Positions 22,305-43,689 of a DNA stretch of 64,000 nucleotides are shown here, piece by piece. The notes under the pieces were generated by a model that saw only the letters and a list, made by a program, of their open reading frames with translations, had not been told where the DNA came from and did not search any database. Numbering within the stretch: the first letter of the stretch is position 1; the number at the start of each line of letters is the position of its first letter. The DNA is from Pseudomonas yamanorum. GTDB taxonomy: Bacteria; Pseudomonadota; Gammaproteobacteria; Pseudomonadales; Pseudomonadaceae. Made by a program: the position numbers and the translations under genes. The stretch lies in contig NZ_LT629793.1 in the NCBI RefSeq assembly GCF_900105735.1, forward strand, positions 3,472,001 through 3,536,000, given 5' to 3'.

Positions 22305-22317
22305 GTTATAGAGTAAC
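22305..22317. promoter_or_regulatory. Degenerate Zur-like dyad before the SPFH operon
   Basis: GTTATAGAGTAAC lies 27 bp before the ATG at 22345. It keeps the outer GTTA/TAAC of the two clear Zur boxes in this window (TGTTATACTATAACA at 41327) but has two mismatches in the right half. It may be a weak Zur site or chance. Confidence 0.25.
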
Positions 22318-22344
22318 TAATTGTTTCTGGGTGGGCGTTTGGGG

Positions 22345-24276
22345 ATGCGAGTGGATCTAGACGCTGATGACGTGGCCATCGAAGGGTTGCCGCGGTTTCA
22401 GCAAGGGTTGTTTCATGCCCGCCGTTTAAGGCAGGCCGGCATTGCCCTGACGGTGCTGGCGGTCGGCGGCTGGATGCTGGCGCTGTTTGTGGCGCTGTTC
22501 GCCCCGCTGTCGATCTGGCCGGTGGTACTGATCAACTGCGCCTCGGCATTGCTGGTGCTGGTGGCCGGTGTTCAGTCGGCCTGGTGGGTCGCGGATTGGC
22601 GGGCCATGGCGCTGGAGGAGCCGGCTGCACGGCTGATCGAGCAGCCGCTGCCACAAGAAGAACCTGGCTGGCTTAACCGGCAGTTCGGTCGCGTCGGCAA
22701 TGGCTTGCTGGTGCAAATTGGCGCGCCGGTGTTCTGGCTGTGTGGCTGGTCGTTGCTGGCGCTGTTCAGCGTCCTGGAATTCTGGAGCCTAACCTTGCCC
22801 GCCGCTGCAGTGGGCCAGGCTGCCAGTGTGGGCGCGGCCATTGCCTTGGCACTGGCATTCGGCTTGCTGGTGTTTGAACGCCGCATGGCCCAGGAAAGCA
22901 CCGCCCAATGGCCGGAAGCCGCGCAACTCGCGCAATTGAGCCGGGTGGCGATTATCTGCCTGGTGATCAGTGCGATTTGTCTGCTGTTCGCCGGTGAAGA
23001 ATCCGTCTGGCCGCTGCGCCTGGCCGTGTTGATCGGCCTGTTGCCGGCCCTGGTGGCGCTGGAGTTTCTGTTAAGAGGCTTGCTGTCGCTGTTCAGCCCG
23101 CGCCAAGAGCGGCTTGAACCGCGCCTGATGGCGCAAAGTTTTATCGCCGGGATGCTGCGCTGGCCGCCGCAACCGTTGCTCGCCTTGCAGCACGAACTGC
23201 ACAACCGTTTCGGCATCGACCTGCGACAGATCTGGGCCTTTACCTACATGCGCCGGGCGTTCCTGCCGGTACTGGTGGTGGTGCTGGCTGTAGGTTGGTT
23301 GCTGACCGGCGTGCATGAAGTCGCTCTGCAAAGCCGTGGGATTTATGAACGCTTTGGCAAGCCGGTGGAGGTCTTCGGGCCTGGCCTGCATGCCGGTTTG
23401 CCGTGGCCGCTGGGCCGCGTGCTGAACGTGGAGAACGGCGTGGTCCATGAGCTGGCCACCAGCGTTGGCGAAGCGGCAAACACCGACGTCGCTCCGGCCG
23501 AGGGCCCGGCGCCGTTGATCGCCAACCGCCTCTGGGACGCTACCCATGTGAATGACAAAGCCCAGGTGATTGCCAGCAGCAGCGGCGACAAACAGAGCTT
23601 CCAGATCGTCAATATGGATGTGCGCTTCGTGTACCGCATCGGCTTGACCGACCAGGCCGCACTCGCCGCCACCTATAACAGTGCCGATGTGCCCACGCTC
23701 ATCCGCAGTACCGCCAGCCGCATCCTCGTCCACGAATTTGCCTCGCGAACCCTCGATGAATTGCTGGGTGAAGAACGCAACAACCTCGCCGATGACATTG
23801 GCAAGGCGGTGCAAGCGGACCTGAAGACACTCGACAGCGGCGTGGAAATCCTCGCCACCGTGGTGGAAGCCATTCACCCGCCTTCCGGTGCGGCCAACGC
23901 TTACCACGCGGTTCAGGCCGCACAGATTGGCGCCCAGGCGCTGATTTCCCGAGAGCGCGGCGCTGCCAGCGAGCAAACCAACCAGGCGTTGCTGCAAGCC
24001 AGCACAGCCCGCGACCAGGCCCAGGCCACGGCTCACGAAGTCAGTGCTGGCGCCCAGGCAGCAGACCTGCGCTTCAGCGCCGAACAAAAGGCCTATCAAC
24101 AAGCGGGCCAGGCCTTCGTGCTGGAGCAGTACCTGAGCCAACTGAGCCAGGGCCTGGCCCACGCCAAATTACTCATTCTTGATCATCGCCTGGGCGCCAG
24201 TGGCGCACCGACCATCGATCTGCGTTCCTTTACCTTACCGGCTGACCCTGCGGTGCCGCGTAAAGCCGTTCAATAA
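22345..24276 (+). CDS. SPFH/Band 7 membrane protein with polytopic N-terminus (HflK-like)
   Basis: About 643 aa from the ATG at 22345 (a TTG at 22321 is an alternative). Five or more hydrophobic segments fill the first 240 residues, a last one (VLVVVLAVGWLL) precedes an SPFH domain beginning with VALQSRGIYERFGKP, and an Ala/Gln-rich coiled coil (about 530-590) follows. This is much longer than ordinary HflK (about 400 aa). First gene of a four-gene operon encoding three SPFH proteins and a metal ATPase. SPFH proteins form large membrane cages or scaffolds, so this set may wrap or regulate the ATPase. Function otherwise unknown. Confidence 0.85.
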   Translation: MRVDLDADDVAIEGLPRFQQGLFHARRLRQAGIALTVLAVGGWMLALFVALFAPLSIWPVVLINCASALLVLVAGVQSAWWVADWRAMALEEPAARLIEQPLPQEEPGWLNRQFGRVGNGLLVQIGAPVFWLCGWSLLALFSVLEFWSLTLPAAAVGQAASVGAAIALALAFGLLVFERRMAQESTAQWPEAAQLAQLSRVAIICLVISAICLLFAGEESVWPLRLAVLIGLLPALVALEFLLRGLLSLFSPRQERLEPRLMAQSFIAGMLRWPPQPLLALQHELHNRFGIDLRQIWAFTYMRRAFLPVLVVVLAVGWLLTGVHEVALQSRGIYERFGKPVEVFGPGLHAGLPWPLGRVLNVENGVVHELATSVGEAANTDVAPAEGPAPLIANRLWDATHVNDKAQVIASSSGDKQSFQIVNMDVRFVYRIGLTDQAALAATYNSADVPTLIRSTASRILVHEFASRTLDELLGEERNNLADDIGKAVQADLKTLDSGVEILATVVEAIHPPSGAANAYHAVQAAQIGAQALISRERGAASEQTNQALLQASTARDQAQATAHEVSAGAQAADLRFSAEQKAYQQAGQAFVLEQYLSQLSQGLAHAKLLILDHRLGASGAPTIDLRSFTLPADPAVPRKAVQ

Positions 24277-24288
24277 GGAGTTCATCTG

Positions 24289-25284
24289 TTGAGCGCTCAT
24301 TCTCACGATCACGCGGGCCATGGTCACCACCACGGCCATCATCATCACCATCACGGTGATGAACAGGAAGCCGGCCCGTTCCCTTGGCGGCGTATGGGCT
24401 GGGCGGTGTTGCTGGTGCTGTTCGCCGTCGCCGCGGCGAGCCTGGTGCAGGTGCGTTCCGGTGAAGCCACGGTGATTACCCGTTTCGGCAACCCGTCGCG
24501 GGTATTGCTGGAACCTGGCCTGGGCTGGCGCTGGCCCGCCCCGTTCGAAGCGGCGATCCCGGTGGACCTGCGCCTGCGCACCACCTCCAGCGGTTTGCAG
24601 GATGTGGGCACCCGCGATGGCCTGCGAATCATCGTGCAGGCCTACGTGGCCTGGCAGGTGCAGGGCGACCCCGACAATGTGCAGCGCTTTATGCGCGCGG
24701 TGCAGAACCAGCCGGATGAAGCGGCGCGGCAGATTCGCACCTTTGTCGGCTCGGCGCTGGAAACCACCGCCGCCAGTTTCGACCTGGCCAACCTGGTGAA
24801 CACCGATGCCAGCCAGGTGCGTATTGCTGATTTTGAAGCGCAACTGCGCCAGCAGATTGATCAACAATTGCTCACTACCTACGGCGTGCGCGTGGTGCAG
24901 GTGGGCGTTGAACGGCTGACCTTGCCCTCGGTGACCCTCGCCGCCACCGTCGACCGCATGCGCGCCGAGCGCGAGACCATCGCCACTGAACGCACGGCCG
25001 TGGGCAAGCGTGAGGCGGCGCAGATTCGTTCGGCTGCCGAGCGTGATGCGCGGATCGTCCAGGCCGACGCCACGGTGAAAGCCGCCGATATCGAAGCGCA
25101 ATCCCGGGTCGAAGCCGCGCAGATTTATGGCCGGGCCTACGCCGGCAATCCGCAGTTGTACAACCTGCTGCGCTCACTCGACACCCTGGGCACAGTTGTC
25201 ACACCGGGTACCAAAATCATCCTGCGCACCGACGCTGCGCCGTTCCGCGCTTTGGTGGATGGGCCGAAGGATATTCAGCCATGA
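24289..25284 (+). CDS. SPFH protein with histidine-rich N-terminus (HflC/HflK-like)
   Basis: A 331-aa protein starting with TTG at 24289, 8 bases after AAGGAG. Residues 4-22 hold 13 histidines, a likely metal-binding tail on the cytoplasmic side. One membrane helix (about 37-55) then leads into an SPFH domain (VRSGEATVITRFGNPSRVLL) and a charged coiled coil (about 225-280). The His tail and the downstream P1B ATPase without an N-terminal metal-binding domain suggest this protein may deliver metal to the pump. The stop overlaps the next ATG as ATGA. Confidence 0.87.
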   Translation: MSAHSHDHAGHGHHHGHHHHHHGDEQEAGPFPWRRMGWAVLLVLFAVAAASLVQVRSGEATVITRFGNPSRVLLEPGLGWRWPAPFEAAIPVDLRLRTTSSGLQDVGTRDGLRIIVQAYVAWQVQGDPDNVQRFMRAVQNQPDEAARQIRTFVGSALETTAASFDLANLVNTDASQVRIADFEAQLRQQIDQQLLTTYGVRVVQVGVERLTLPSVTLAATVDRMRAERETIATERTAVGKREAAQIRSAAERDARIVQADATVKAADIEAQSRVEAAQIYGRAYAGNPQLYNLLRSLDTLGTVVTPGTKIILRTDAAPFRALVDGPKDIQP

Positions 25285-26315
25285 GTGAGCGGGAAAGCCT
25301 CGACAGCCCGTGGATCCAGGCTGGACGGCTGACGTTCCTGGCGCTGTATGCGGTGACGGTGTTGGCCGCATTGGCATGGGCGTTTTCCAACGTGCGGCAG
25401 ATCGACCCGCAGAACCGCGCCGTGGTGTTGCACTTCGGCGCGCTGGACCGGATCCAGAATGCCGGGCTGCTGCTGGCCTGGCCGCGTCCGTTCGAGCAAG
25501 TGGTGCTGTTGCCCGCAGCGGACCGGGTAATCGAGCGCCGGGTGGAGAACCTGCTGCGTTCCGATGCGGCCACCCAAGCCGACCGCGTGGCCAGTTTTGC
25601 CACGCCGCTGAGCGACGCCCTGGCCGGCTCCGGCTACCTGCTGACCGGCGATGCCGGGGTGGTGCAACTGGATGTGCGGGTCTTCTACAAGGTTACCGAG
25701 CCCTATGCATTTGTGTTGCAGGGCGATCATGTTCTGCCGGCGCTGGATCGACTGGTCACCCGCAGCGCCGTGGTGCTGACCGCTGCGCGAGACCTGGACA
25801 CCATTCTGGTGGCGCGCCCCGAGCTGATCGGCGCCGACAACCAGGCTGCCGAACGCCGCGAACGGCTGCGCGGTGATCTGGTGCGAGGCATCAATCAACG
25901 CCTGGCCGACCTGACGTCCACCGGCCTTGGCCTGGGCATCGAAGTCACCCGGGTCGACGTGCAATCAAGCCTGCCGGGCCCGGCGGTCAACGCCTTCAAC
26001 GCGGTACTGACCGCCAGCCAGCAAGCCGACAAGGCCGTAGCCAATGCGCGCACCGACGCCGAGAAACTCACCCAGACCGCCAACCAGGACGCCGACCGTG
26101 CTGTCCAGGTAGCTCACGCCCAGGCCAGCGAGCGTCTGGCCAACGCCCAGGCACAAACCGCCACCGTCGCCAGCCTGGCCCAGGTCAAAGACCCCGGCCT
26201 GCTGCTGCGCCTGTACCGCGAACGCCTGCCGAAGATTCTCGGCCAGGCCGGCTCCGTGACCACGGTTGACCCTAAAGACGATTCCCGCCTGATCATTCAG
26301 GGAGCCGAACAATGA
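25281..26315 (+). CDS. SPFH protein, third of the operon (HflK-like)
   Basis: A 344-aa protein with one membrane helix (about 18-36), an SPFH domain opening with IDPQNRAVVLHFGAL, and an Ala-rich coiled coil (about 235-300: QQADKAVANARTDAEK). It has no His-rich tail. Its start and stop both lie in 4-bp overlaps with neighbours, so stoichiometric synthesis with the second SPFH protein and the ATPase is likely; HflK and HflC likewise form mixed cages. A FtsH-regulating role is the family default, but the company of a metal pump points elsewhere. Confidence 0.87.
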   Translation: MSERESLDSPWIQAGRLTFLALYAVTVLAALAWAFSNVRQIDPQNRAVVLHFGALDRIQNAGLLLAWPRPFEQVVLLPAADRVIERRVENLLRSDAATQADRVASFATPLSDALAGSGYLLTGDAGVVQLDVRVFYKVTEPYAFVLQGDHVLPALDRLVTRSAVVLTAARDLDTILVARPELIGADNQAAERRERLRGDLVRGINQRLADLTSTGLGLGIEVTRVDVQSSLPGPAVNAFNAVLTASQQADKAVANARTDAEKLTQTANQDADRAVQVAHAQASERLANAQAQTATVASLAQVKDPGLLLRLYRERLPKILGQAGSVTTVDPKDDSRLIIQGAEQ

Positions 26316-28207
26316 CCGCCCACGCCGCCCCGATACTCTCATCGGCCGAACAACGCAGCGCCGCCCGGCAACTGACCCTGGCGATGCTCGCCTTGGGCTT
26401 GCTCAGCCTGGGCCTGGTATGGCGCTGGCTGGCGCCGGACCAGACCGGCGTGAGCCAACTGCTGCTGGGCGTCGCCTCATTGCTGGTGGCCGTGCCCGTG
26501 ATGCGCTCGGCCTGGTACAGCCTGCGTTATCCGAGCCTGCATGGCATCACCGACCAACTGATCGCCCTGGCCATGCTCGGCGCCTGGGCCACCGGCGACC
26601 TGCTGACCGCTGCGCTGCTGCCGATCATCATGATCTTCGGCCATGTGCTGGAAGAGCGCAGTGTCATCGGCTCCCAGGAAGCGATTCATGCCCTAGGCAA
26701 ATTGACCCGCAGCCATGCGCGCCTGGTGCAGGCGGACGGGACCATTCTGGAAGTCGACAACGGCATCCTGAAGACCGGCGATATCGTCGAAGTGCGTGCC
26801 GGTGACCGGGTGCCCGCCGATGGCGTGGTGCTGTCGGGCCAGGCCAGCCTGGACACTGCGCCGATCACCGGCGAATCGGTGCCGCTTGAGGCCAGTGTTG
26901 GCGTGCAGGTGTTTGGTGGCGCGATCAACCTCGACGGCCTGCTGCGCCTGGAAGTGACCCGCACCGGCAATGAGTCGACCCTGGGCAAAGTCATCGCCCT
27001 GATGCAGAGCGCCGAACGTTCCAAGCCGCCGATCACCCGATTGCTGGAGCGCTACGCCGGCAGTTATATGGTGCTGGTGCTGTTGCTGGCGGCGGTCACC
27101 TGGTTTGTCACCAATGACGCCCAGGCGATGCTCGCGGTGCTGGTGGCTGCATGCCCGTGTGCATTGGTGTTGTCGGCTCCGGCCACGGCAATTGCGGGCA
27201 TTGCGGTGGCGGCGCGTCACGGCATTCTGATTCGCAGCTCGGCATTTCTCGAAGAGCTTGCAGACCTGACGTCACTGGTGGTCGACAAGACCGGCACTCT
27301 GACGTTTGGCACCCTGCGTTTGCAGTCCATCGACACCCGCGAGCCGGATCGGCAAGTGCTGCTCAACCTGGCGGCCAGCCTCGGCTCCGCCAGCAGCCAC
27401 CCGGTCAGCCGGGCATTGGCGGGGTTGGCGACTCAGGAACAAATGCTGGTGCTGTCGGATATTCGCGAGCGCCAGGGCCTCGGTGTGGTCGCGCAGACCG
27501 GGCAGGGCGAAGCCGCCCTCGGTCGGCCGGAATTGTTTGAACAACTGGGCATCCCGACCACGGCAGTCCCCAACCACGATGGCCCGATTGCCGGGCTGGC
27601 GCTGAACGGGCAATTCCTCGCCTGGCTGTTGCTGGCGGACAGCGTGAAACCTGAAGCCCGCCAGGCAATGAAGGAGCTGCGTGAACTGGGCCTGGGTCGC
27701 CAACTGTTGCTGACGGGCGACCGCCAAAGCGTGGCCGACAGCCTGGCGTTGGAAGTGGGCATCAGCGACGTCGAAGCCCAGGCTTTGCCGGAAGACAAGC
27801 TCAACCGCGTGCTGGGGGAAATCGGCAGCGGCTTCCGGCCGATGGTGGTGGGCGACGGGATCAACGATTCCCTGGCGCTCAAGGCGGGTGTGGTCGGCGT
27901 GGCGATGGGCGCGGGCGGGGCGGATATCGCCTTGGCGTCGGCGGATGTGGTGCTGATCGGTAGCGACCTGCGGCGCTTGGGTACCTGTGTGCGCTTGAGT
28001 CGCCAGTGCCGGCACACGTTGCAGGTCAATGTGATTATCGGCCTGGGCTGGACGTTGGCGATCGTGGTGTTCGCCGCATTTGGCTGGCTGGGCGCGGCGG
28101 GAGCGATGATTGCGGCGGTGTTGCACAACCTCAGTACGCTGCTGGTGCTGGGTAATGCGGGGCGTCTGTTGCGGTTCCAGGAGCCGTTATTGAAACTCGA
28201 GGAATAA
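26312..28207 (+). CDS. P1B-type heavy-metal translocating ATPase
   Basis: A 631-aa pump without any N-terminal HMA or His-rich domain. The P-type motifs are all present: TGES, the membrane metal motif C281-P-C283 (ACPCALVLSAP), phosphorylation site D325 in DKTGTLT, and GDGIND. The last helix has H605-N606-L-S-T followed by LLVLGN, unlike the Asp of ZntA-type Zn/Cd pumps or the Met-Ser pair of copper pumps, and closest to the HEGST of CoaT/P1B-4 pumps. Substrate is therefore open: zinc, cobalt or another divalent metal. Last gene of the SPFH operon, overlapping the previous stop by 4 bp. Confidence 0.92.
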   Translation: MTAHAAPILSSAEQRSAARQLTLAMLALGLLSLGLVWRWLAPDQTGVSQLLLGVASLLVAVPVMRSAWYSLRYPSLHGITDQLIALAMLGAWATGDLLTAALLPIIMIFGHVLEERSVIGSQEAIHALGKLTRSHARLVQADGTILEVDNGILKTGDIVEVRAGDRVPADGVVLSGQASLDTAPITGESVPLEASVGVQVFGGAINLDGLLRLEVTRTGNESTLGKVIALMQSAERSKPPITRLLERYAGSYMVLVLLLAAVTWFVTNDAQAMLAVLVAACPCALVLSAPATAIAGIAVAARHGILIRSSAFLEELADLTSLVVDKTGTLTFGTLRLQSIDTREPDRQVLLNLAASLGSASSHPVSRALAGLATQEQMLVLSDIRERQGLGVVAQTGQGEAALGRPELFEQLGIPTTAVPNHDGPIAGLALNGQFLAWLLLADSVKPEARQAMKELRELGLGRQLLLTGDRQSVADSLALEVGISDVEAQALPEDKLNRVLGEIGSGFRPMVVGDGINDSLALKAGVVGVAMGAGGADIALASADVVLIGSDLRRLGTCVRLSRQCRHTLQVNVIIGLGWTLAIVVFAAFGWLGAAGAMIAAVLHNLSTLLVLGNAGRLLRFQEPLLKLEE

Positions 28208-28314: not shown

Positions 28315-28566
28315 ATGAACATCAAATCCGCTGCTGCTGGTGCCGCCCTCGCTATCGCCGCTGCTGGCATGTTTGCCGGTGTTGCCACTCAGGTGCAGGC
28401 AGCAGACGCCCAGGTCCATTGCTATGGCGTCAACGCCTGCAAAGGCCAGAACGACTGCAAAACCAAAGACCACGCTTGCAAAGGCATGGGTTCTTGCAAA
28501 GGCCAGGGCTTCCTGTCGATGAGCAAAGCGATGTGCGATCAGAAAGGCGGCAAAGTCGGCGAGTAA
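28315..28566 (+). CDS. bufA1: Bufferin-type RiPP precursor (DUF2282)
   Basis: An 83-aa peptide with a Sec signal peptide (about 1-29, ending VQA) and a Cys-rich mature part with Cys at 36, 42, 48, 55, 61 and 74, set in repeats such as NACKGQNDCKT and HACKGMGSCKGQ. This is the DUF2282/BufA1 pattern. In described systems the partner MNIO enzyme turns core cysteines into thiooxazole groups, and the exported peptide binds copper and protects the cell. The precursor is encoded 67 bp before the enzyme gene, as expected. Confidence 0.9.
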   Translation: MNIKSAAAGAALAIAAAGMFAGVATQVQAADAQVHCYGVNACKGQNDCKTKDHACKGMGSCKGQGFLSMSKAMCDQKGGKVGE

Positions 28567-28633
28567 CCGGCAACCGAGTGCAACCGCAGCGGGCACCCCC
28601 TCCGCTGCGGACACTTTCCCCAGGAGTGTTTTT

Positions 28634-29479
28634 ATGTCCGCTTCCCTTCCGAGTCTGGGTTACGGCCTGGGTTTACGCAGCGAGTACTACCAGCAGATCC
28701 TTGAACAATCGCCGGCCGTGGATTGGTTCGAAGTGATCTCCGAGAATTATCTGGTGCAGGGCGGCAAGGCCTTGTACTACCTGGACGCGATAGCCGAGCG
28801 TTATCCCCTGGTGATGCATGGCGTGTCCCTGTCCATTGGTGGACCCCATGCCCTCGATATCGATTACCTGAAACAACTCAAGCAGCTCTCCGAACGCATC
28901 CAGCCGGCGTGGGTTTCCGACCACTTGTGCTGGAGCCGCGGCAACGCGCACCAGTTGCATGACCTGCTGCCGCTGCCATACACCGAAGAAAGCCTGTACC
29001 ACGTCGCCGGTCGCGTCCGGCAGGTGCAGGATGTGTTGCAGCGTCCCTTCGTGCTGGAAAACGTCTCCAGCTATGTGCGCTCCAAGGCGGATGAGTTTAC
29101 CGAGTGGGAATTTCTCAACGCCCTGACCCATCTCACCGGCTGCCAGCTGCTGCTGGATGTGAATAACGTCTACGTCAGCTCACGCAATCATGGGTTCGAC
29201 GCCTGGGAATTTATTCGCAACCTGCCGCCCGAAAGCATCCGCCAACTGCACTTGGCCGGGCATATGGATTACGGCGACTACGTGATCGACACGCACGACC
29301 ATCCGGTATGCGATCCCGTGTGGGCGCTGTATCAGCAGACCCTGGAGCATCTTGGGCCGGTCTCGACCTTGCTGGAACGCGATGACCATTTCCCGCCGTT
29401 CCAGGAGTTGCTCGACGAGCTGAGCAAGGCCCGTGAACTGGGCGCGAGCGCGTTGGACAGGAGAGCGTTATGCGCCTGA
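28634..29479 (+). CDS. bufB: MNIO family modification enzyme (DUF692, BufB)
   Basis: A 281-aa TIM-barrel, multinuclear non-heme iron oxidative enzyme. Conserved pieces include GYGLGLRSEYY at the N-terminus, MHGVSLSIGG, DHLCWSRG, ENVSSYV, LLLDVNNVYVSS and LAGHMDYGDYVIDTHDHPV, which carry the metal-binding His, Glu, Asp and Asn residues. It modifies cysteines of the adjacent BufA1 peptide. ATG at 28634 with GGAG 8 bases upstream; the stop overlaps bufC by 10 bp. Confidence 0.93.
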   Translation: MSASLPSLGYGLGLRSEYYQQILEQSPAVDWFEVISENYLVQGGKALYYLDAIAERYPLVMHGVSLSIGGPHALDIDYLKQLKQLSERIQPAWVSDHLCWSRGNAHQLHDLLPLPYTEESLYHVAGRVRQVQDVLQRPFVLENVSSYVRSKADEFTEWEFLNALTHLTGCQLLLDVNNVYVSSRNHGFDAWEFIRNLPPESIRQLHLAGHMDYGDYVIDTHDHPVCDPVWALYQQTLEHLGPVSTLLERDDHFPPFQELLDELSKARELGASALDRRALCA

Positions 29480-30255
29480 TTGATTGGCAGTTGGCCTTTG
29501 AACAGCACTTGCTGGCCGAGACGTCCACTGCCAGCAACAGCTTCAGTGCCACCTTGATCGGCGGCCCGACCCTGGATGTCGAGACGGGCCTGGCGATTTA
29601 CCACAACGCCTATCACGCACGGTTGCAGGAAGTGCTGCGCGATGACTTCAGCGCCGTCTGGTATTGGCTGGGGGACGATGAGTTTGCGCAGTTGGGTTCG
29701 GCCTATATCCGGCGTTACCCCTCGGCCCATTACAGCCTGCGTTGGTTCGGCGAGCGGTTCCCCGGGTTTATCGTTGAACATTATGCCGAGCAGGGCGCTC
29801 CGCTGGCCGAGCTGGCGCGGCTGGAATGGGCCTTCACCCTGGCCTTTGATGCACCGCAAGGCGAGCCGTTGACCCTGCAAGACATGGCAACGCTGCCGCC
29901 TGAAGACTGGCCCGGGTTGCACGTGCAGCTCGCACCTTCGGTGCAGCAGGTGACGTGTGATTTCAACAGCCTGGGTATCTGGCGTGCCAGCAAGGGCGAG
30001 TGGGATTTTCCCGGCAGCGAGGCCTTGCCGTTGGCGCAGGTCTGCCTGGTCTGGCGCCATCAGAATGTTTGCCAGTACCGCAGCCTGGAAGCGGCTGAAG
30101 CCAGCGCGCTGACCGGCATGGTCACCAGCGGCTGGAGTTTTTCCGAACTGTGTGCCGAGTTGGCAGTCACTTACCAAGAGGGCGCGCCATTGCAAGCGGT
30201 TACCTGGCTGAAACAGTGGGTCCAGGAGGGTTTGCTCCAGCGGCGGGCACCATAG
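29470..30255 (+). CDS. bufC: DUF2063 bufferin partner protein (BufC)
   Basis: A 261-aa soluble protein. The N-terminal DUF2063 helical domain shows LAIYHNAYHARLQEVLRDDF and YIRRYPSAHYSLRWFG; the C-terminal part is a small mixed domain. In MNIO systems such partners bind the precursor peptide and present it to the enzyme. Overlaps bufB by 10 bp, so the two are coupled. No BufD/DoxX gene follows; a terminator and cfa come next. Confidence 0.9.
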   Translation: MRLIDWQLAFEQHLLAETSTASNSFSATLIGGPTLDVETGLAIYHNAYHARLQEVLRDDFSAVWYWLGDDEFAQLGSAYIRRYPSAHYSLRWFGERFPGFIVEHYAEQGAPLAELARLEWAFTLAFDAPQGEPLTLQDMATLPPEDWPGLHVQLAPSVQQVTCDFNSLGIWRASKGEWDFPGSEALPLAQVCLVWRHQNVCQYRSLEAAEASALTGMVTSGWSFSELCAELAVTYQEGAPLQAVTWLKQWVQEGLLQRRAP

Positions 30256-33889: not shown

Positions 33890-35227
33890 TCAACGCTGGA
33901 AGTGCAGCGGCAGCCCTTGGCAACTGTCGTGCACGCGCCCGTCGTGCCAGGCCAGGTGGCCGGAGACCAGGGTGGTGCTGACGCTGTGCCGGAAGCTGCG
34001 CCCGGCAAAGGGCGTCCAGCCGCAACGGGCCATAATCGGCTGGCTGCTGACGGGCTTGCCTTGGGGTTCGGGTTTGATCAGCACCAGGTCGGCCCAATAG
34101 CCTTCCCGCAGGTAGCCACGGTCGGGGATCGCAAACAGGTCAGCAACGCGATGGCTGGTTTTCGCCACCAGAGTAGTCAGCGGCAGCAGGCCGTCAGCCA
34201 CCAATTCCAGCAGCGCCGGCAGGGCGTGTTGCACCAACGGCAAGCCTGACGGTGCTTCACGATATGGCAGCTGTTTTTGCGCCCAGGTGTGCGGCGCATG
34301 ATCACTGCCAATCACATCCAGACGATCACTCAACAATGCCAGGCGCAGGGCGTTGCGGTCGGCGCGTGTCTTGATGGCCGGGTTGCATTTGATCTGGTGG
34401 CCGAGGCGCGCGTAGTCGCGGTCATCGAACAGGAGGTGATGCAGGCAGACTTCCGCCGTGATGCGTTTTTCCGCCAGGGGTTTGTCTTCGAACAGCACCA
34501 ACTCCCGGGCGCTGGTGATGTGCAACACATGCAGGCGCGTGCCATGCCGCTTGGCCAGTTCCACCGCCAAAGACGACGAGCGATAGCAGGCTTCGGCATC
34601 GCGAATCAGCGGATGAGCCACAGCAGGAATGTGCTCGCCGAAGCGCTCGCGCATCCGTTGCTCGCTGGCCTGGATGCTGGGCGTGTGCTCGCAGTGGGCC
34701 AGGAGAATGGTCGGCACCTCGGCGAACAGGCGTTCGAGAATCTTCGGGTCATCCACCAGCATATTGCCGGTGGAGGCGCCCATGAAGACTTTGACGCCAG
34801 CCACCTCGCGCGGGTCCAGCGCGGCCACTGTGTCGAGGTTGTCGTTGCTCACCCCAAAGTGAAAGCCATAGTTGGCCACCGAATGCAGGGCCGCGCGGCG
34901 CTTCTTGTCGGCGAGGGCGTCCAGGTTCAACGTCGCCGGGTTGGTGTTGGGCATGTCCATGAAACTGGTGATGCCACCGGCCACCGCTGCACGGGACTCG
35001 CTGTAGAAGCTGCCCTTGTCCGGTGCGCCGGGTTCACGGAAATGGACTTGGTCGTCGATCATGCCCGGTAGCAGCCACTGGCCTTGGGCGTCGATTTCCA
35101 CCGTGGCATTGGCGTTGTCGATGCTGCTGGCGATCTTCTCGATACGGCCATTGGCGACCAGCAGGTCAGCCTCGAATTCCTGGCCTTCGTTCACCAGGCG
35201 GGCGTTGCGGATCAGCAGGCGGCTCAT
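33890..35227 (-). CDS. pyrQ: Dihydroorotase, zinc-starvation paralogue
   Basis: A 445-aa amidohydrolase. DDQVHFREPG carries the first metal His pair position, and MDMPNTNP, AHCEH, LHITSARE and GSDHAPH complete the active site. It cyclises carbamoyl-aspartate to dihydroorotate in pyrimidine synthesis. ATG at 35227; longer open frames upstream run through the preceding gene. It is the last gene of the putative Zur-controlled chain and corresponds to P. aeruginosa PA5541, thought to replace the housekeeping enzyme when zinc is scarce. Start lies 2 bp after the preceding stop. Confidence 0.92.
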   Translation of the reverse strand: MSRLLIRNARLVNEGQEFEADLLVANGRIEKIASSIDNANATVEIDAQGQWLLPGMIDDQVHFREPGAPDKGSFYSESRAAVAGGITSFMDMPNTNPATLNLDALADKKRRAALHSVANYGFHFGVSNDNLDTVAALDPREVAGVKVFMGASTGNMLVDDPKILERLFAEVPTILLAHCEHTPSIQASEQRMRERFGEHIPAVAHPLIRDAEACYRSSSLAVELAKRHGTRLHVLHITSARELVLFEDKPLAEKRITAEVCLHHLLFDDRDYARLGHQIKCNPAIKTRADRNALRLALLSDRLDVIGSDHAPHTWAQKQLPYREAPSGLPLVQHALPALLELVADGLLPLTTLVAKTSHRVADLFAIPDRGYLREGYWADLVLIKPEPQGKPVSSQPIMARCGWTPFAGRSFRHSVSTTLVSGHLAWHDGRVHDSCQGLPLHFQR

Positions 35228-35229
35228 GG

Positions 35230-35790
35230 TCAGAACTCGTTTTGCAGGGCTTTGTAACCCAGCACCAGGTCGACGTTGGTGCGTGCCACGTCTTCGGAAA
35301 ACTCCGAAGCGCTGACACTCACCGGCGGAAACTGGGACAGGTCGGTGTTGGGGCCGATGCGGGTGGTGGAAGGCACGTAGAACGCGGCGGGCAAATCGCG
35401 GCCATCGACCACCGAGTTGTGCCGCACCACGCAGCCGTCGCCGACGACGCAGTTGAACAGCACACTGTTGAAGCCGATGAAGACCCGGTCGCCGACGGTG
35501 CACGGGCCATGAACGATGGAACGGTGGGCGATGGAGGTGAACTCGCCGATGGTCACCGCGGCGCCGGATTTGGAGTGGATCACCACGCCGTCCTGGATAT
35601 TTGAATTGGCGCCGATGGTGATCGGGTCCATGTCGCCATTGGCGTCGACTTCGTCGGCGCGGATCACCGCGTAAGGGCCGACAAACACGTTTTCGCCGAT
35701 GATGACCTTGCCGCAGATGATTGCGGTTTTGTCGACGTAGGCCGATTCGGCAATCACGGGCAGATCACCGGAAGGGTTCTTGCGGATCAT
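35230..35790 (-). CDS. Gamma-carbonic anhydrase-like left-handed beta-helix protein
   Basis: A 186-aa hexapeptide-repeat protein (IICGKVIIGENVFVGPYAVI, then IGANSNIQDGVVIHSK and VRHNSVVDG) with the metal-binding His residues of the gamma class. Gamma enzymes can use iron or cobalt, so it may stand in for zinc beta-carbonic anhydrase. ATG at 35790 overlaps the hisI-like stop as ATGA. Homologue of PA5540. Confidence 0.9.
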   Translation of the reverse strand: MIRKNPSGDLPVIAESAYVDKTAIICGKVIIGENVFVGPYAVIRADEVDANGDMDPITIGANSNIQDGVVIHSKSGAAVTIGEFTSIAHRSIVHGPCTVGDRVFIGFNSVLFNCVVGDGCVVRHNSVVDGRDLPAAFYVPSTTRIGPNTDLSQFPPVSVSASEFSEDVARTNVDLVLGYKALQNEF

Positions 35791-36212
35791 GGGGCAGGCT
35801 CCTGGAGGGGCGCAGTGAGGATGTGTACGTGGCGGCCGTCGATGGCGTTGTAGAAACAGGTGGGTCGCCCGGTGTGGCAGGCCGGGCCTTGCTGGTCGAC
35901 GATCAGCAACACGGCGTCGCCGTCGCAATCCAGGCGCGCCTCCACCAGCAGTTGCCAGTGGCCGGAGGTTTCGCCTTTGCGCCACAACTGCTGGCGCGAG
36001 CGGGACCAGTAGCAGACCTGCCCGGTGGCCAGGGTTTCGTCGAGGGCCTGGCGGTTCATCCAGGCCAGCATCAACACCTCGCCGCTGCCGTGTTGCTGGG
36101 CGATGGCGGCGATCAGGCCATCGCTGTTCCACGGCAGGGCGTCGAGCACGCGGTCGAGTGGAAAGCGGCTGCCGATGGCGGCCTTTTCCAGGTCGAGCAT
36201 GCTCAGTTTCAT
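35787..36212 (-). CDS. hisI: Phosphoribosyl-AMP cyclohydrolase paralogue
   Basis: A 141-aa HisI enzyme, third step of histidine synthesis. Conserved parts: EVLMLAWMNRQAL, YWSRSRQQLWRKGE, the Asp cluster in DCDGDAVL, and PACHTGRPTCFY with the metal Cys/His residues. ATG at 36212 in an ATGA overlap with znuA. The ordinary hisI is normally beside hisE; this copy inside a zinc-uptake chain is a likely low-zinc paralogue. Confidence 0.92.
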   Translation of the reverse strand: MKLSMLDLEKAAIGSRFPLDRVLDALPWNSDGLIAAIAQQHGSGEVLMLAWMNRQALDETLATGQVCYWSRSRQQLWRKGETSGHWQLLVEARLDCDGDAVLLIVDQQGPACHTGRPTCFYNAIDGRHVHILTAPLQEPAP

Positions 36213-37093
36213 GGCTTGCTCAGGGCCGCGCACAGGGTGTTGAGGTTGTATTCGAACAGGCCGGTAAAGGTGCTGGCCGGGCCTTCTGCAGCCAGGGCGT
36301 CCGAGTACAGCGTGCCGCCGATTTGCGCGCCACTTTCGTCCGCGATCTGCTTGAGCAGGCGCGAGTCCTTGATGTTTTCCATGAACACGGCCTTGACCTT
36401 GTCCTTGCGGATCTGGGTGATCAGCGTGGCGACTTCGGCAGCAGACGGTTCACGTTCGGTGGACAAACCTTGAGGCGACAGGAACTCGATACCGTAGGCC
36501 TGACCCAGGTAACCGAAGGCGTCATGGGAGGTCACGATGCGACGGTTGCCCGGTGGCAGGGCGCCGAACTTGGCTTTGGCTTCAGCCAGCAGGCGGTAGA
36601 TTTCTTTCAGGTACACCTGGCTGTTGTGCTCGTAGTCCGCCTTGTTGGCCGGGTCGGCAGCGATCAGCGCCTTGGTGATGTTGTTCACGTAGATCACGGT
36701 GTTGGCCAGGTTGTGCCAGGCGTGTGGGTCGGGAATGGTCTCGCCGTCTTCTTCCATGGTGTGGGACAGCACGCCTTTACTGGCGGTGACCACGGTGGCC
36801 TTGGTTTCGGTGCTGGTGACCAAGCGATCCAGCCACGGCTCGAAGCCGAGGCCGTTCTTGATGATGACCTTGGCTTTGAGCAGGGCCTTGGCATCGTCTG
36901 GCGTCGGTTCGTAGGTGTGGGCGTCAGCATCGGGGCCGACCATGTTGCTGATCTGGATATGATCGCCACCGACCTGGTGGGTCATGTCGTCAAGAATACT
37001 GAAGCTGGTAACCACCTGAAGCTTGTCGGCAGCCTGGGCCGTCGCGAACGACAGCGGCAGCAACACACTGAACAGCACGAGTAGAGCGCGCAT
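36209..37093 (-). CDS. znuA: Zinc ABC transporter, substrate-binding protein
   Basis: A 294-aa periplasmic protein with signal peptide (about 1-21, TAQA). Metal ligands are expected in DAHTYEP, DPHAWHN, TSHDAFGYLG and YSDAL. The long His/Asp loop seen in many ZnuA proteins is absent, so manganese or a wider range is not excluded; company in a Zur-type chain favours zinc. ATG at 37093 with GAGGTG upstream. Follows znuB on the same strand. Confidence 0.9.
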   Translation of the reverse strand: MRALLVLFSVLLPLSFATAQAADKLQVVTSFSILDDMTHQVGGDHIQISNMVGPDADAHTYEPTPDDAKALLKAKVIIKNGLGFEPWLDRLVTSTETKATVVTASKGVLSHTMEEDGETIPDPHAWHNLANTVIYVNNITKALIAADPANKADYEHNSQVYLKEIYRLLAEAKAKFGALPPGNRRIVTSHDAFGYLGQAYGIEFLSPQGLSTEREPSAAEVATLITQIRKDKVKAVFMENIKDSRLLKQIADESGAQIGGTLYSDALAAEGPASTFTGLFEYNLNTLCAALSKP

Positions 37094-37104
37094 CGGGAAA
37101 CACC

Positions 37105-37971
37105 TCATTGGGATGTAAGCAAAGGCGGGCGGCGCAGCAAGCCGTGCACCGGACCGAAGACCACGGACAGCAGGTACAAGCCGCCAGCCACCAGCACAAT
37201 CGCCGGGCCGCTGGGCAGCGAGTAGTAGAACGACAGCAACAAGCCAAGCCACACCGACAGGCATCCCAGCACCGCTGATATGGCGATCAACACCGGCAGG
37301 CGCCGGCTCCAGAAACGTGAAGCAATCGCCGGCAACATCATCAACCCGACCACCATCAAGGCGCCGATGGCCTGGAAGCCGATCACCAGGTTCAACACCA
37401 CCAGCGTCAGGAACAGCCCGTGAGCCAACGGGCCGAGGCGGCTGACGGTTTGCAGGAACAGCGGGTCGAGGGTGTCCAGCAGCAGCGGTTTGTAGATCAC
37501 CACCATGGCGATCAGGCTGAAGCCCGAGACCCAGAGCATGCCGGTGAGGGTCGGGCCGTCGACCGCCAAGGCCGAGCCGAACAGCAGGTGCAGCAGGTCC
37601 AGGCGTTTGCCGGCGAGGCCAAGAATCAGCACGCCGCTGGCCAGGGAGATTGGGTAGATGGCGGCGAGGCTCGCGTCTTCCTTAAGGCCCGTGCGGCGGG
37701 TGATCCAGGCGGCGAGGCCGGCCATGCTCAGGCCGGCGCCCAGGCCACCGATGGTCAGCGCGGGCAGGCTCAGCCCGGCAAACCAGAAGCCCAGGGCGGC
37801 GCCGGGGAGGATGCCGTGGGACACCGCGTCACCGATCAGGCTCATGCGACGCAGGATCAGGAACACTCCCAGCGGCGCCGTGCTGCATGCCAATACCAGC
37901 CCGCCGACGAGGGCGCGGCGCATGAAAACGAAGTCGAGAAACGGCATCCACAGGTGAGCGGCGAAGTGCAT
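37105..37971 (-). CDS. znuB: Zinc ABC transporter, permease
   Basis: A 288-aa inner-membrane ABC-3 permease with eight or more helices. Typical segments are RRMSLIGDAVSHGILPGAAL and FQAIGALMVVGLMMLPAI. Start ATG at 37971 overlaps the znuC stop (TGATG). Partner of ZnuC and ZnuA. Confidence 0.93.
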   Translation of the reverse strand: MHFAAHLWMPFLDFVFMRRALVGGLVLACSTAPLGVFLILRRMSLIGDAVSHGILPGAALGFWFAGLSLPALTIGGLGAGLSMAGLAAWITRRTGLKEDASLAAIYPISLASGVLILGLAGKRLDLLHLLFGSALAVDGPTLTGMLWVSGFSLIAMVVIYKPLLLDTLDPLFLQTVSRLGPLAHGLFLTLVVLNLVIGFQAIGALMVVGLMMLPAIASRFWSRRLPVLIAISAVLGCLSVWLGLLLSFYYSLPSGPAIVLVAGGLYLLSVVFGPVHGLLRRPPLLTSQ

Positions 37972-38639
37972 CAGGCCACCTGCATGTGTGACTGGGGGCG
38001 GATCAGCTCTTTGCTTGAGCCGAACACGCAACCGCTGCTTTTGATCTGCACCACTTGCTGGGTGTGTTGGCGGACCGAGCCGAGGTCATGGCACACCACG
38101 ACCACCGTGCGGCCTTCATCGTGCCAGGCATGGATGTGTTTCCAGCACAGCGCCTGGCCGTCTTCGTCGAGGGCGGCGTGGGGTTCGTCCAGCAGCAATA
38201 TCGGGGACTCGGCCAAACTCATGCGGGCGAGCAGGGCGCGTTGCAGTTCGCCACCGGACAAGGCCATCAACGGCCGATGCTCCAGGCCACTGAGGCACCA
38301 GTCTTCGAGTACGGCGCTCAGGCGTTCGGTGCGTTGTTGCGGGGTTTGCTTGTTGCCCCAGAAGCCGGCGGCCACCAACTCTTGCAAGCTGATGGGGAAC
38401 TGGCGGTCGAGGTTCTGTTGTTGGGGCAGGAACGACAGGCCACCACGGCGTGGAACCTCAATCGTCACTTTCCCGGCCAAGGGCTTCTGCAAGCCGGCGA
38501 TGACTTTCAGCAGGCTGCTTTTGCCGGTGCCGTTGGCGCCGATGATGCCGGTGAGACTGCCTTTTTCCAGGGTGAAATCGACGGCAGGGGTCAGTGGTTG
38601 GCCGGGGGCGCCCCAGCGCAAAGCGGTGCAGGTGATCAT
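37971..38639 (-). CDS. znuC: Zinc ABC transporter, ATPase
   Basis: A 222-aa ABC ATPase: Walker A GANGTGKSS, Q-loop FLPQQQ, signature LSGGELQRA, Walker B ILLLDEP and switch VVCHD. ATG at 38639 overlaps the folE2 stop as ATGA, an unusual direct coupling of zinc uptake to a zinc-independent enzyme. Confidence 0.94.
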   Translation of the reverse strand: MITCTALRWGAPGQPLTPAVDFTLEKGSLTGIIGANGTGKSSLLKVIAGLQKPLAGKVTIEVPRRGGLSFLPQQQNLDRQFPISLQELVAAGFWGNKQTPQQRTERLSAVLEDWCLSGLEHRPLMALSGGELQRALLARMSLAESPILLLDEPHAALDEDGQALCWKHIHAWHDEGRTVVVVCHDLGSVRQHTQQVVQIKSSGCVFGSSKELIRPQSHMQVA

Positions 38640-39532
38640 TCGGAAGGTCTCGTCCAGCGGCTTTCAGCCACGGCATCGTGCGCGTGCAGGCTTTCGGCGT
38701 GGATCACTTTCAAGTGGAAGGCAATGACCGCATCCGAGCGTTTCAAGGCGAGGTTCAGGCGGCGGGCGGCGTCTTCGCAGAACATCAGGTTCTGCCCGTT
38801 GGCCAGGGCGAAGGCTTGTTCGTCCGCGCGCTTTACGGCGGTTTGTACGGCGGTGCCAAGGGCTGCTTCGGTTTCGTCGATCAGTTGCGTCAGCGGCAGG
38901 GTTGGCTGGTCGCCTTGAAGGCGGACCTGCAACAGCGCGCTGCTGCGCTGGCTGTGGGGCGTGGCGACGATGCCGTTTGCACTGCCGAGCCAGGTCAGCA
39001 CGTCTTCGTGTTGCAGCGGTGTGCCGGCGAAGTCTTCGATAAATTGCTGCTGAATCAATTGCCTGGCGAGGGCAGCCGAGCACGGGCAGGTTGAAGAGTA
39101 AGTAACGTCAATTTTTAGTTCCACGTGGAACATCTGGTTTTCCAGGCGGGCTTCGATGCTCACCGGGTAGCTTTTCCACCCGGCCAACGGGCTGACCAAC
39201 GCCGGGCGTTTTAGCAGCAGATCCGTATGAATCCGCAGGTAGGCATTTGTGGATAAACCTTCATGACTGTCGAGAAAACGTTGCAATACACTGCGCAGCA
39301 GTGCTGGCGTAAGCGGCTGCTGTTCAAGCATCTCCAGCGCCAGATAAAGCCGAGACATATGAATGCCACGCGCTTCGCCGTCGTCCAGGCTGACGCCTGC
39401 ATCGGCCTTGGCGCTGAGGCGCTGGCCGTCGATCTGAATGGGCAGGGCAATGCCGCACATGCCCACCCAATCCAGCGGCAAGGCTTGGCGTGAAGCCTGC
39501 GCGGCGATATCGGGCAGAGTCAGCGCGTTCAT
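38636..39532 (-). CDS. folE2: GTP cyclohydrolase IB (FolE2)
   Basis: A 298-aa enzyme that starts folate and queuosine synthesis from GTP. The type IB active-site Cys lies in SSTCPCSAAL; QNLMFCEDAAR is also typical. FolE2 works with several metals and substitutes for zinc-dependent FolE, so it is a classical Zur target. First gene of the chain, 30 bp from the Zur-like box at 39563. Confidence 0.95.
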   Translation of the reverse strand: MNALTLPDIAAQASRQALPLDWVGMCGIALPIQIDGQRLSAKADAGVSLDDGEARGIHMSRLYLALEMLEQQPLTPALLRSVLQRFLDSHEGLSTNAYLRIHTDLLLKRPALVSPLAGWKSYPVSIEARLENQMFHVELKIDVTYSSTCPCSAALARQLIQQQFIEDFAGTPLQHEDVLTWLGSANGIVATPHSQRSSALLQVRLQGDQPTLPLTQLIDETEAALGTAVQTAVKRADEQAFALANGQNLMFCEDAARRLNLALKRSDAVIAFHLKVIHAESLHAHDAVAESRWTRPSE

Positions 39533-39562
39533 GAGCAGTCCATCGTTGGAAATAAAAAGACA

Positions 39563-39577
39563 TGTTATATTATTACA
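39563..39577. promoter_or_regulatory. Zur-like box between folE2 and the amidase
   Basis: TGTTATATTATTACA differs by one base from the perfect dyad TGTTATA-N-TATAACA found at 41327. It lies 30 bp upstream of folE2 and 82 bp upstream of the amidase, so one repressor could control both directions. Confidence 0.85.
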
Positions 39578-39659
39578 ATTGAATCGACGAAAGTTTTTCT
39601 GCTCTGTCTTTTATTCAGTCATGTCGAGTACGGACGCTCCTTTATTTGCGGTGTAAGTC

Positions 39660-40883
39660 ATGCACAGACGTCAACTCCTCAACCTGCTGCTGGCCAGCGC
39701 GGTGTTCACCCTGCCCTTTGGTGTATCTGCCGCGCAGATCCGCAATGCACGGTTGTGGCGCTCGGATAACAAGCTGCGGCTGGTGCTGGATCTCAGTGGC
39801 CCGGTGCAATACAAGACCTTCACCCTGACCGCGCCGGAGCGGTTGATCATTGATTTGAGCGGCGCGAAGTTGACCGGGGATTTCAGCCAACTGGCCCTGA
39901 CCAACAGCGGCATTACCTCGATTCGCTCGGGGCACTTTGGCCAGGGTGATACGCGGATCGTGCTGGATTTGAAGGCGCCGATGCAGCTCAACAGCTTTCT
40001 GCTGCCGCCGCAGGATGGCCAGGGCCACCGCCTCGTGCTGGACCTGACAACTGCCACTCATGCGCCTATGCAAATCGCTGCGGCACCGGCCGCGTTGGCT
40101 GCCCCCGTGCCGGCGCCGGTGGACAAAGCGCATCCGAAACGCGACATCATCGTAGTGGTCGACCCCGGCCATGGCGGTAAGGACCCTGGTGCAATAGGCT
40201 CCAAAGGCCAGCGTGAAAAAGACGTGGTGCTGTCCATCGCCCAATTGCTGGCCAAGCGCTTGAAGCGTGAGAAGGGCTTCGATGTGAAGCTGGTGCGCAA
40301 CGACGATTTCTTCGTGCCGCTGCGTAAACGCGTGGACATCGCCCGTCAGCACAAGGCCGACATGTTTATCTCGGTGCACGCTGATGCGGCGCCACGGCTT
40401 ACGGCGTCAGGCGCTTCTGTCTATGCGTTGTCTGAGGGCGGTGCGACGTCCGCCACGGCGCGGTTCATGGCACAGCGGGAGAACGGTGCCGACCTGTTGG
40501 GCGCTACCACGTTGCTCAACCTCAAGGACAAGGACCCGATGCTCGCCGGCGTCATTCTCGACATGTCGATGAACGCCACCATCGCCTCCAGCCTGCAGCT
40601 GGGCAGTTCGGTGCTGGGCAGCCTGCAAAGCATCACCACGCTGCATCAAAAACGCGTGGAACAGGCCGGCTTTGCGGTACTCAAGTCGCCGGACGTGCCG
40701 TCGATCCTGGTGGAAACCGGGTTTATCTCCAACACCCAGGACGCCCAGCGGCTGGTCACCGCACGCCATCAACAGGCGGTGGCAGACGGTTTATTTGAAG
40801 GGCTGAAAAACTACTTCCAGAAGAACCCGCCGATGAACAGCTACATGGCCTGGGTTCAGGAACAGAAGAATGGCCAGGTCTAA
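39660..40883 (+). CDS. amiA: N-acetylmuramoyl-L-alanine amidase
   Basis: A 407-aa periplasmic cell-wall amidase. N-terminal signal with paired Arg (MHRRQLLNLLLA), AMIN domain about 25-130, Pro/Ala linker, then Amidase_3 domain with zinc ligands in VVDPGHGGKDPG, REKDVV, SVHADA and catalytic Glu in LVETGF. It cuts the amide bond between peptide and muramic acid during cell separation. Homologue of PA5538. A zinc enzyme behind a Zur-like box seems odd and may replace amidases that fail at low zinc, or free wall-bound metal. Confidence 0.92.
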   Translation: MHRRQLLNLLLASAVFTLPFGVSAAQIRNARLWRSDNKLRLVLDLSGPVQYKTFTLTAPERLIIDLSGAKLTGDFSQLALTNSGITSIRSGHFGQGDTRIVLDLKAPMQLNSFLLPPQDGQGHRLVLDLTTATHAPMQIAAAPAALAAPVPAPVDKAHPKRDIIVVVDPGHGGKDPGAIGSKGQREKDVVLSIAQLLAKRLKREKGFDVKLVRNDDFFVPLRKRVDIARQHKADMFISVHADAAPRLTASGASVYALSEGGATSATARFMAQRENGADLLGATTLLNLKDKDPMLAGVILDMSMNATIASSLQLGSSVLGSLQSITTLHQKRVEQAGFAVLKSPDVPSILVETGFISNTQDAQRLVTARHQQAVADGLFEGLKNYFQKNPPMNSYMAWVQEQKNGQV

Positions 40884-41248
40884 CAGCCGGTAATCCGGCT
40901 GCAGGTGAATTTGGCGCTGACTCCACCAGAACTGGAAAACCGGTTGATGGTGGTCCAGCCCACTCGCCGCGTGTAGCCCACCCACGCCTCACCATCGGAT
41001 GCCAACCCGGTAAAGAACGTCAGCTGCCCGTAGCGGCTGTTGGTCTGTGCCCAGTAGCGTTTGCCGATCACCTCGAAACCCCGCAAATACGTGGTGCTGC
41101 CCGCCGTCGCGACGCTGTAGGCATTGCCCTGCGCGTCGACGCACGCCAGCAGGTTGGCGCTGCGGGTGCAGTTGGCCAGCAGGCTGGGCACCTGGGCGTT
41201 GGCCAGGCTCGCCACCATCAGCAACACAGCGCACAACAGGTATTTCAT
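40880..41248 (-). CDS. Small secreted Cys-containing protein, unknown
   Basis: A 122-aa protein from the ATG at 41248 with signal peptide about 1-18 (LLMVASLANA). The mature part has four Cys: ANCTRSANLLACVD near the start and TCSRITGC at the very end, which could form two disulfides, plus aromatic-rich middle (YWAQTNSRYGQL). No family recognised; it may correspond to PA5537. Divergent from dksA2 across the Zur-like box at 41327, so probably induced at low zinc. The 3' end overlaps the amidase stop by 4 bp, convergent. Confidence 0.75.
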   Translation of the reverse strand: MKYLLCAVLLMVASLANAQVPSLLANCTRSANLLACVDAQGNAYSVATAGSTTYLRGFEVIGKRYWAQTNSRYGQLTFFTGLASDGEAWVGYTRRVGWTTINRFSSSGGVSAKFTCSRITGC

Positions 41249-41326
41249 AGAGGTTCTCGGGGCGTTTTCGCCTGCCAGCATTGCGCCCTTCGTCGTTACG
41301 AGCAAGGGGGATTGGCTTATTTGCAT

Positions 41327-41341
41327 TGTTATACTATAACA
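41327..41341. promoter_or_regulatory. Zur-like box upstream of dksA2
   Basis: TGTTATACTATAACA, a perfect dyad around one central base and flanked by AT on both sides. It lies 33 bp before dksA2 and 78 bp before the divergent secreted-protein gene. Confidence 0.9.
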
Positions 41342-41374
41342 TTAAAAAACAGCCTGACCCGTGAACCACCTCCA

Positions 41375-41779
41375 ATGACCGAACAAGACCTTCTCGCCCA
41401 ACCCTCCGCCGACTACATGAATGAAGCCCAGCAAGGTTTCTTCCGCGAGCTGTTGCTGGCCCAGCGTAATGAGCTGCAAGCGCGCATCGATGCCGAATTC
41501 ATGGTGCTGCGCGAACAGGAACCCAACAGCGATCCCGCCGATGTGGGCAGTGCTGAAGAACAGCGCCAATGGCAACTGCGCCTGCTGGAGCGCGAAAAGA
41601 AGCTGTTGGACAAGATCGACGAGGCCTTGGAGCACCTGGCCCGAGGCGAATACGGCTGGTGCCGTGAAACCGGCGAGCCCATCGGCCTCAAGCGCCTGTT
41701 GCTGCGCCCCACGGCCACCCTGTGTATCGAAGCCAAAGAACGTGAAGAGCTGCGCGAACGCCATCAACGGGCGATTTGA
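41375..41779 (+). CDS. dksA2: Zinc-independent DksA paralogue
   Basis: A 134-aa RNA polymerase-binding factor that works with ppGpp. Coiled-coil tip DPADVGSAEEQ carries the acidic residues. The four-Cys zinc finger is reduced to Cys96-x2-Thr99 and Cys117-x2-Ala120, the pattern of P. aeruginosa DksA2, which needs no zinc. ATG at 41375, 33 bp from the Zur-like box. First gene of dksA2-zigA-DUF1826-COG0523. Confidence 0.95.
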   Translation: MTEQDLLAQPSADYMNEAQQGFFRELLLAQRNELQARIDAEFMVLREQEPNSDPADVGSAEEQRQWQLRLLEREKKLLDKIDEALEHLARGEYGWCRETGEPIGLKRLLLRPTATLCIEAKEREELRERHQRAI

Positions 41780-41806
41780 CCGGCCAACCCTGATGAGGAA
41801 TACCTG

Positions 41807-43656: not shown

Positions 43657-43689
43657 CCGGGTAGGATCAAACCTCTCTACACGGTCTGA

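Follow-up and report, generated by a model that had tools for sequence, protein, structure and literature searches.

In a 64,000-nucleotide window of the Pseudomonas yamanorum genome (contig NZ_LT629793.1, positions 3,472,001 to 3,536,000 of the forward strand), we analyzed four genes at window positions 22345..28207, which encode three SPFH proteins, here called S1, S2 and S3, and a P1B metal ATPase, here called the pump. We identify the locus as a Pseudomonas hmtA operon, a match to PA2439-PA2434 of P. aeruginosa. The original prediction, made from the letters of the window, had proposed an undescribed metal-handling complex; the gene set was confirmed and the interpretation partly supported, but the word undescribed does not apply, since the P. 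aeruginosa hmtA locus, though little understood, is known to be induced by zinc starvation. A dedicated partnership between the SPFH proteins and the pump is the best reading of the locus. We consider it fairly probable that the genes form a Zur-repressed zinc-starvation operon in which the SPFH trio would build a cage or scaffold holding the pump instead of the protease FtsH, with S1 acting as a dock and the tails of S2 taking up or buffering metal.

A P1B ATPase with a CPC motif and without an HMA domain follows three SPFH genes in order, as expected of an hmtA locus. Both loci show the order SPFH (HflK), SPFH (HflC), SPFH and P1B pump. They also share a Zur site upstream, found here as a motif; zinc-starvation induction is known for P. 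aeruginosa. In addition, an S2 relative labelled P. aeruginosa carries the same kind of His tail. The loci differ in that the window has no gene between S3 and the pump and has a bufferin cassette directly after the pump. The window also bears a His tail on S2 only, whereas sister-genus loci (L137, L170-L180) have a tail on the pump too. One sister-genus locus, L177, consists of S1, S2, S3, an open reading frame of 162 amino acids, the pump and an open reading frame of 181 amino acids, which fits PA2439-PA2434; its S2 shows 95.5% identity over 312 residues to the His-tailed protein labelled P. aeruginosa. A putative secreted protein of 150–162 amino acids was seen between S3 and the pump, at the position of PA2436, in L137 (11142-11594) and L177 (6481-6969). 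Pfam gave no match for the L137 copy.

The original prediction had described the four genes as coupled by short gaps or overlaps, and we indeed found a gap of 12 bp between S1 and S2 and ATGA overlaps at S2/S3 and S3/pump. It had also named rare co-occurrence elsewhere as a reason to give up the idea; the linkage was complete in our samples. Of 59 genomes sampled from the genus, 39 carry S1, and precisely these also carry the pump; the two lie on one contig and strand at a distance of 2,030–2,233 bp. The other 20 genomes contain neither. In a sample of 299 genomes from the phylum, S2 (at least 67% identity) occurred in nine, again the same nine that hold the pump, and the other SPFH matches to S2 listed in this sample showed at most 32% identity. 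Grouping by chance was rejected on these counts (39/39 and 9/9). After retaining 80 of 192 loci encoding an S1 relative, all four genes were present at 79, the remaining locus being a cut contig.

The set is otherwise rare. Scoring the best few candidates per genome in the large samples, we detected no further copy in the class (S1 searched in 369 genomes, the pump in 274), and the pump appeared in 1/199 and 5/119 genomes of two other families and in 13/25 of the sister genus. Eleven plasmids matched S2, ten of them at 60–80% identity. All eight of these ten that we examined carry the four genes, with Klebsiella aerogenes, Burkholderia ubonensis, Paraburkholderia sprentiae and Rhizobium as hosts. 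Taken together, the set behaves like a horizontally moved unit. Some copies may have decayed, given the in-frame stops in one S2 (G607, TAG) and one pump (G975, TAA). In one of the 39 S1-bearing genomes of the genus, S1 is present as two open frames, a membrane part and an SPFH part, split near the domain border (G034:C1:934955-936897).

The operon, its parts and its Zur-like box lie on the plus strand. S1 (22345..24276; PA2439-like) joins a predicted CDF-like membrane domain to an HflK-type SPFH domain (23335..23964). Its frame was called from an ATG and yields 643 amino acids, the length of two near relatives named by NCBI; the listed open reading frame has a further TTG start upstream at 22321. 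S2 (24289..25284; PA2438-like) is an HflC-type protein with a TTG start and a His-rich N-terminus, and S3 (25281..26315; PA2437-like) is an HflK-type protein. That all three belong to the SPFH family, as initially proposed, was confirmed by the Band_7 model (Pfam PF01145, cut-off 23.6 bits), which gave 80.6 bits for S1, 110 for S2 and 60.3 for S3. The NCBI curated HflK/HflC cut-offs were missed by S1 (62 vs 159.4 bits), S2 (97.4 vs 134.4) and S3 (89.3 vs 159.4). In the tree S1–S3 fall outside canonical HflK/HflC in separate clades at 100/100, with S2 on the side of HflC and S1 and S3 on the side of HflK, a placement to which a long-branch warning applies. The first tree left out the S2 of L139 (in-frame stop), the first rows of L122 and L125 and duplicate own rows; further canonical rows were left out of the second. 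A separate canonical HflK/HflC pair is present elsewhere in the same genome. The missed cut-offs and separate clades led us to reject S1–S3 as the genome's ordinary HflK/HflC. Judged by their sequences, they are a dedicated paralogous set of one HflC-type and two HflK-type proteins and not the genome's FtsH modulators.

The best-known role of the bacterial HflK/HflC cage is to hold FtsH. This cage likewise consists of HflK- and HflC-type SPFH proteins and provides the closest solved structures by sequence, but the locus described here has three SPFH genes instead of two, a P1B pump in the place of FtsH, and the CDF-like and His-tail additions. This closeness in sequence would also suit S1–S3 serving as additional FtsH modulators of the HflK/HflC type; FtsH is a zinc protease, and the trio would then be produced when zinc is scarce and share only its regulation with the pump. 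PMC11761036 connects PA2438/PA2439 with HflB/FtsH. We regard this as unlikely: the curated cut-offs are missed by all three proteins, an HflK/HflC pair is encoded elsewhere in the genome, the linkage is to the pump, and a relative from Aquibium is joined to the domain of a metal transporter. Moreover, no FtsH was found among 57 features listed within ~8 kb in four plasmid loci, for which the gene table is incomplete. Most likely, S1–S3 would instead form a hetero-oligomeric membrane scaffold or cage around the pump.

Of the first 22 residues of S2 (24289..24354), 13 are His, exactly as the original prediction had counted, and the other 309 contain none; Cys is missing from the whole protein. 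The tail stands ahead of a membrane helix with two Arg beside it and, as read from these residues, is probably located in the cytosol. A tail with at least six His was found in 109 of the 111 loci holding S2, L066 being left out of the count for having neither S2 nor pump; the tail of L146 has 10 His. A cruder count on stop-to-stop frames gave 102/111, because seven of the frames that fell short extend far beyond the start on its upstream side or contain an upstream stop. In 19 different canonical HflK/HflC rows, used as control, we found at most two His per 25-residue stretch of the first 170 residues. Given its recurrence across the loci and this control, the tail of S2 is more than a product of chance. 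The orthologous pumps were scored as well: at least four His precede the first membrane helix in 26 of 105 (of 111 pumps, six could not be scored by the script and were left out). S2 is tail-less in L142 and L169, and in both loci the pump opens with a stretch of Cys and His containing 5 and 4 His, respectively, so every one of the 111 modules carries such a segment on S2 or on the pump. Within the proposed cage, the His-rich tails of S2 would be arranged as a ring on the cytosolic side, where they would take up or buffer the metal released by the pump.

The pump (26312..28207; HmtA-like, PA2435-like) consists of the Pfam domains E1-E2 ATPase and hydrolase, and HMA gave no match. The earlier claim that it lacks any metal-binding domain stands for this pump but does not carry over to the 26 orthologues with His-rich N-termini. 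The protein passes the heavy-metal model TIGR01525 (518 bits, above cut-off) and the cadmium/zinc subfamily model TIGR01512 (484.1 vs 313.5 bits). Both Cys of its CPC metal motif (C281-P282-C283; 27152..27160) are conserved in 27/27 aligned pumps. The same is true of H605 in the last membrane helix (28124..28126), which is part of LHNxST in this pump; its aligned counterparts are the His of HEG in 7qbz and the Asp in 4umv, a ZntA-type pump. The Lys and Asp that mark the last two helices of P1B-2 (ZntA-type) pumps are not found in the pump, which has Thr and His605 at the 4umv-aligned places. Measured against the P1B class motifs, the pump thus mixes marks of different P1B classes.

The N-terminal domain of S1 (residues 18–254; 22396..23106) seems to have a CDF-like membrane fold resembling zinc transporters, as judged from structure prediction. 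Foldseek alone gave no match with E < 0.001: among the 50 of 238 matches listed, CDF chains reached the highest probabilities, but the best E value belonged to a receptor. The full-length S1 model has a predicted local distance difference test score (pLDDT) of 43. PF01545 gave no match in S1 of the window nor in four plasmid orthologues, and hhalign of the domain against the CDF domain from Aquibium gave nil. The HxxxD/DxxxD metal site of helices 2 and 5 is absent by eye from the predicted helices of 27 S1 proteins. The domain, without the CDF metal site, would probably dock the cage to the pump. Together with the joint occurrence of the four genes, it suggests that the SPFH proteins work for the pump and not for a protease.

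A Zur-like box (GTTATAGAGTAAC; 22305..22317) lies 27 bp before the ATG of S1 and matches 10/12 positions of the Zur consensus. Of 112 loci, mostly close relatives, 88 have a site scoring at least 10/12 ahead of S1, compared to 0.6% of shuffles; the reversed motif reaches this in 1/112. The six loci from Rhizobium, Burkholderia and Paraburkholderia scored 6–8, which is background level. In the own genome we counted 14 distinct Zur-like sites with at most one mismatch; the counts were 9+8 vs 10+7 for the reversed control and thus no higher, indicating that the pattern alone is not specific. Flanks were examined for 11 of the 14 sites. Five precede genes fitting zinc starvation, namely this operon, folE2/amiC (39564), dksA (41328), a TonB receptor and a ZrgA-family zinc uptake gene.

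In a znuA mutant of P. aeruginosa, PA2439 (HflK family) was up 9.0-fold, PA2438 (HflC) 10.6-fold, PA2437 (HflC family) 14.4-fold and PA2435 (HmtA) 5.6-fold (Pederick 2015, PMC4542158). In the presence of zinc, Zur causes a shift of the PA2439 promoter (PMC8531726), and the proteins were raised in zinc depletion, by its own account significantly for PA2438 and PA2439, in PMC11761036. From P. aeruginosa we infer that the operon is Zur-repressed. Other published statements weigh against our interpretation: PMC8531726 found hmtA mRNA at a persistently low level that zinc did not repress, and according to PMC10393844 hmtA is the exception to Zur binding and import by HmtA needs confirmation. Import of Zn and Cu by HmtA has been reported via reviews, among them PMC10393844. 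Following this literature, the pump would move Zn, and perhaps Cu too, most likely inward.

The direction matters for the tail. The original prediction had the His tail feed metal to the pump, which, if done from the cytosol, would make the set a complex for metal export or detoxification. Most P1B ATPases export (PMC10393844), the S2 tail and the pump N-termini are probably cytosolic, and the copper-related bufferin genes adjoin the locus. Yet such a complex is quite improbable in view of the zinc-starvation induction (PMC4542158, PMC11761036) and Zur binding (PMC8531726) in P. aeruginosa, the import reported for HmtA (reviews, PMC10393844) and the loss of the bufferin cassette from 26 of 77 loci that keep pump and next gene. 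With import as the direction in the literature, the S2 tail would more likely receive or buffer metal than supply an exporter.

A second, distant locus on the Aquibium oceanicum plasmid NZ_CP018172 (16552-25241; L187 8553-17242) supports the connection between SPFH proteins and pump. It encodes a CDF-SPFH fusion, two SPFH genes, a peptidyl-prolyl isomerase (PPIase) and a P1B pump and stands among copper-handling genes. Shared with the locus of the window are the HflK-HflC-HflK order, the CDF domain on the first protein and the P1B pump thereafter. The Aquibium HflC-type protein differs (28.7% identity), and the first HflK-type protein has a true CDF domain (PF01545, E 4.5e-25) with two HxxxD motifs. 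The Aquibium pump has HMA domains, a very His-rich long linker and ZntA-like last helices, a PPIase gene precedes it, and the SPFH proteins have no His tail. Among 72,556 plasmid records Aquibium gave the sole match spanning a CDF-SPFH fusion at the settings used. The tree groups its two HflK-type proteins (AqK1, AqK2) with each other; in approximately unbiased tests, a pairing of S1 with AqK1 (p 0.135) or with AqK2 (0.15) was not rejected, and the results lean against a pairing of S3 with AqK2 (0.038) or with AqK1 (0.025).

More tentatively, and short of calling it probable, we propose that bacteria have SPFH cages of a class devoted to metal pumps and not to proteases. In such a cage, an HflK-HflC-HflK hetero-oligomer with one fused CDF subunit, bearing metal motifs in Aquibium and serving as a structural dock in the hmtA line, would enclose the P1B ATPase, with His tails at the cytosolic mouth. 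This would create a closed zinc-handling compartment in the inner membrane, and its four genes would travel as a unit from one proteobacterial class to another.

PaFlo5-PaFlo6-PaFlo7 (PA14_33070, _33080, _33110) described in PMC13086221 presumably correspond to PA2439-2437, considering the gene numbers and there being one three-SPFH operon. They likewise comprise three SPFH genes in one predicted operon, are patchy and are thought to be horizontally acquired. The trio is absent from the P. fluorescens reference of that paper but present in fluorescens-labelled loci here. Deletion of PaFlo5-7 in PA14 left growth in lysogeny broth (LB) unchanged, reduced biofilm by ~20% and caused attenuation in Galleria. 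In the main text of PMC13086221, hmtA, P-type ATPase, Zur and chelat gave no match, and the single mention of 'zinc' refers to FtsH. The mild effects of the deletion, in tests without zinc limitation, would agree with SPFH proteins acting in zinc starvation as general membrane organisers or protein chaperones without touching the pump, and a general organising role has been proposed for the family. We think this decidedly unlikely, as the set always goes with one pump family, in different classes and on plasmids, S2 or the pump bears His-rich segments, and S1 has a predicted CDF-like domain. Of the open-access papers found in a search for a connection between SPFH proteins and the pump, two list the genes next to each other, and the others seem unrelated, judged by their titles; in PMC12452194, which treats bufferins, a term search found no mention of SPFH or ATPases.

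The bufferin cassette lies between the pump and the next gene (28315-30255) and encodes a BufA2 family metallophore, the MNIO maturase BufB and a DUF2063 partner. It is present at 51 of the 77 loci with pump and next gene; one of the loci, L072, has kept a BufC-like remnant. A copper unit defined by these neighboring genes was rejected, given its absence from the other 26. Further downstream, positions 33890-44664 form a zinc-starvation island with an amidohydrolase, a ZnuA-type binding protein, an Azt-like ABC transporter, FolE2, an AmiC-like amidase, DksA, ZigA and a second CobW-type GTPase. The Zur-like boxes at 39564 and 41328 lie within it.

If the partnership between SPFH set and pump is true, it would provide a role for three SPFH proteins of P. 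aeruginosa that have been deleted in published work with no test under zinc limitation. It would also help to explain HmtA as an odd P1B ATPase, a reported importer that has no HMA domain. A dedicated, pump-tied SPFH set would show that cages of the HflK/HflC type are customisable to other clients.
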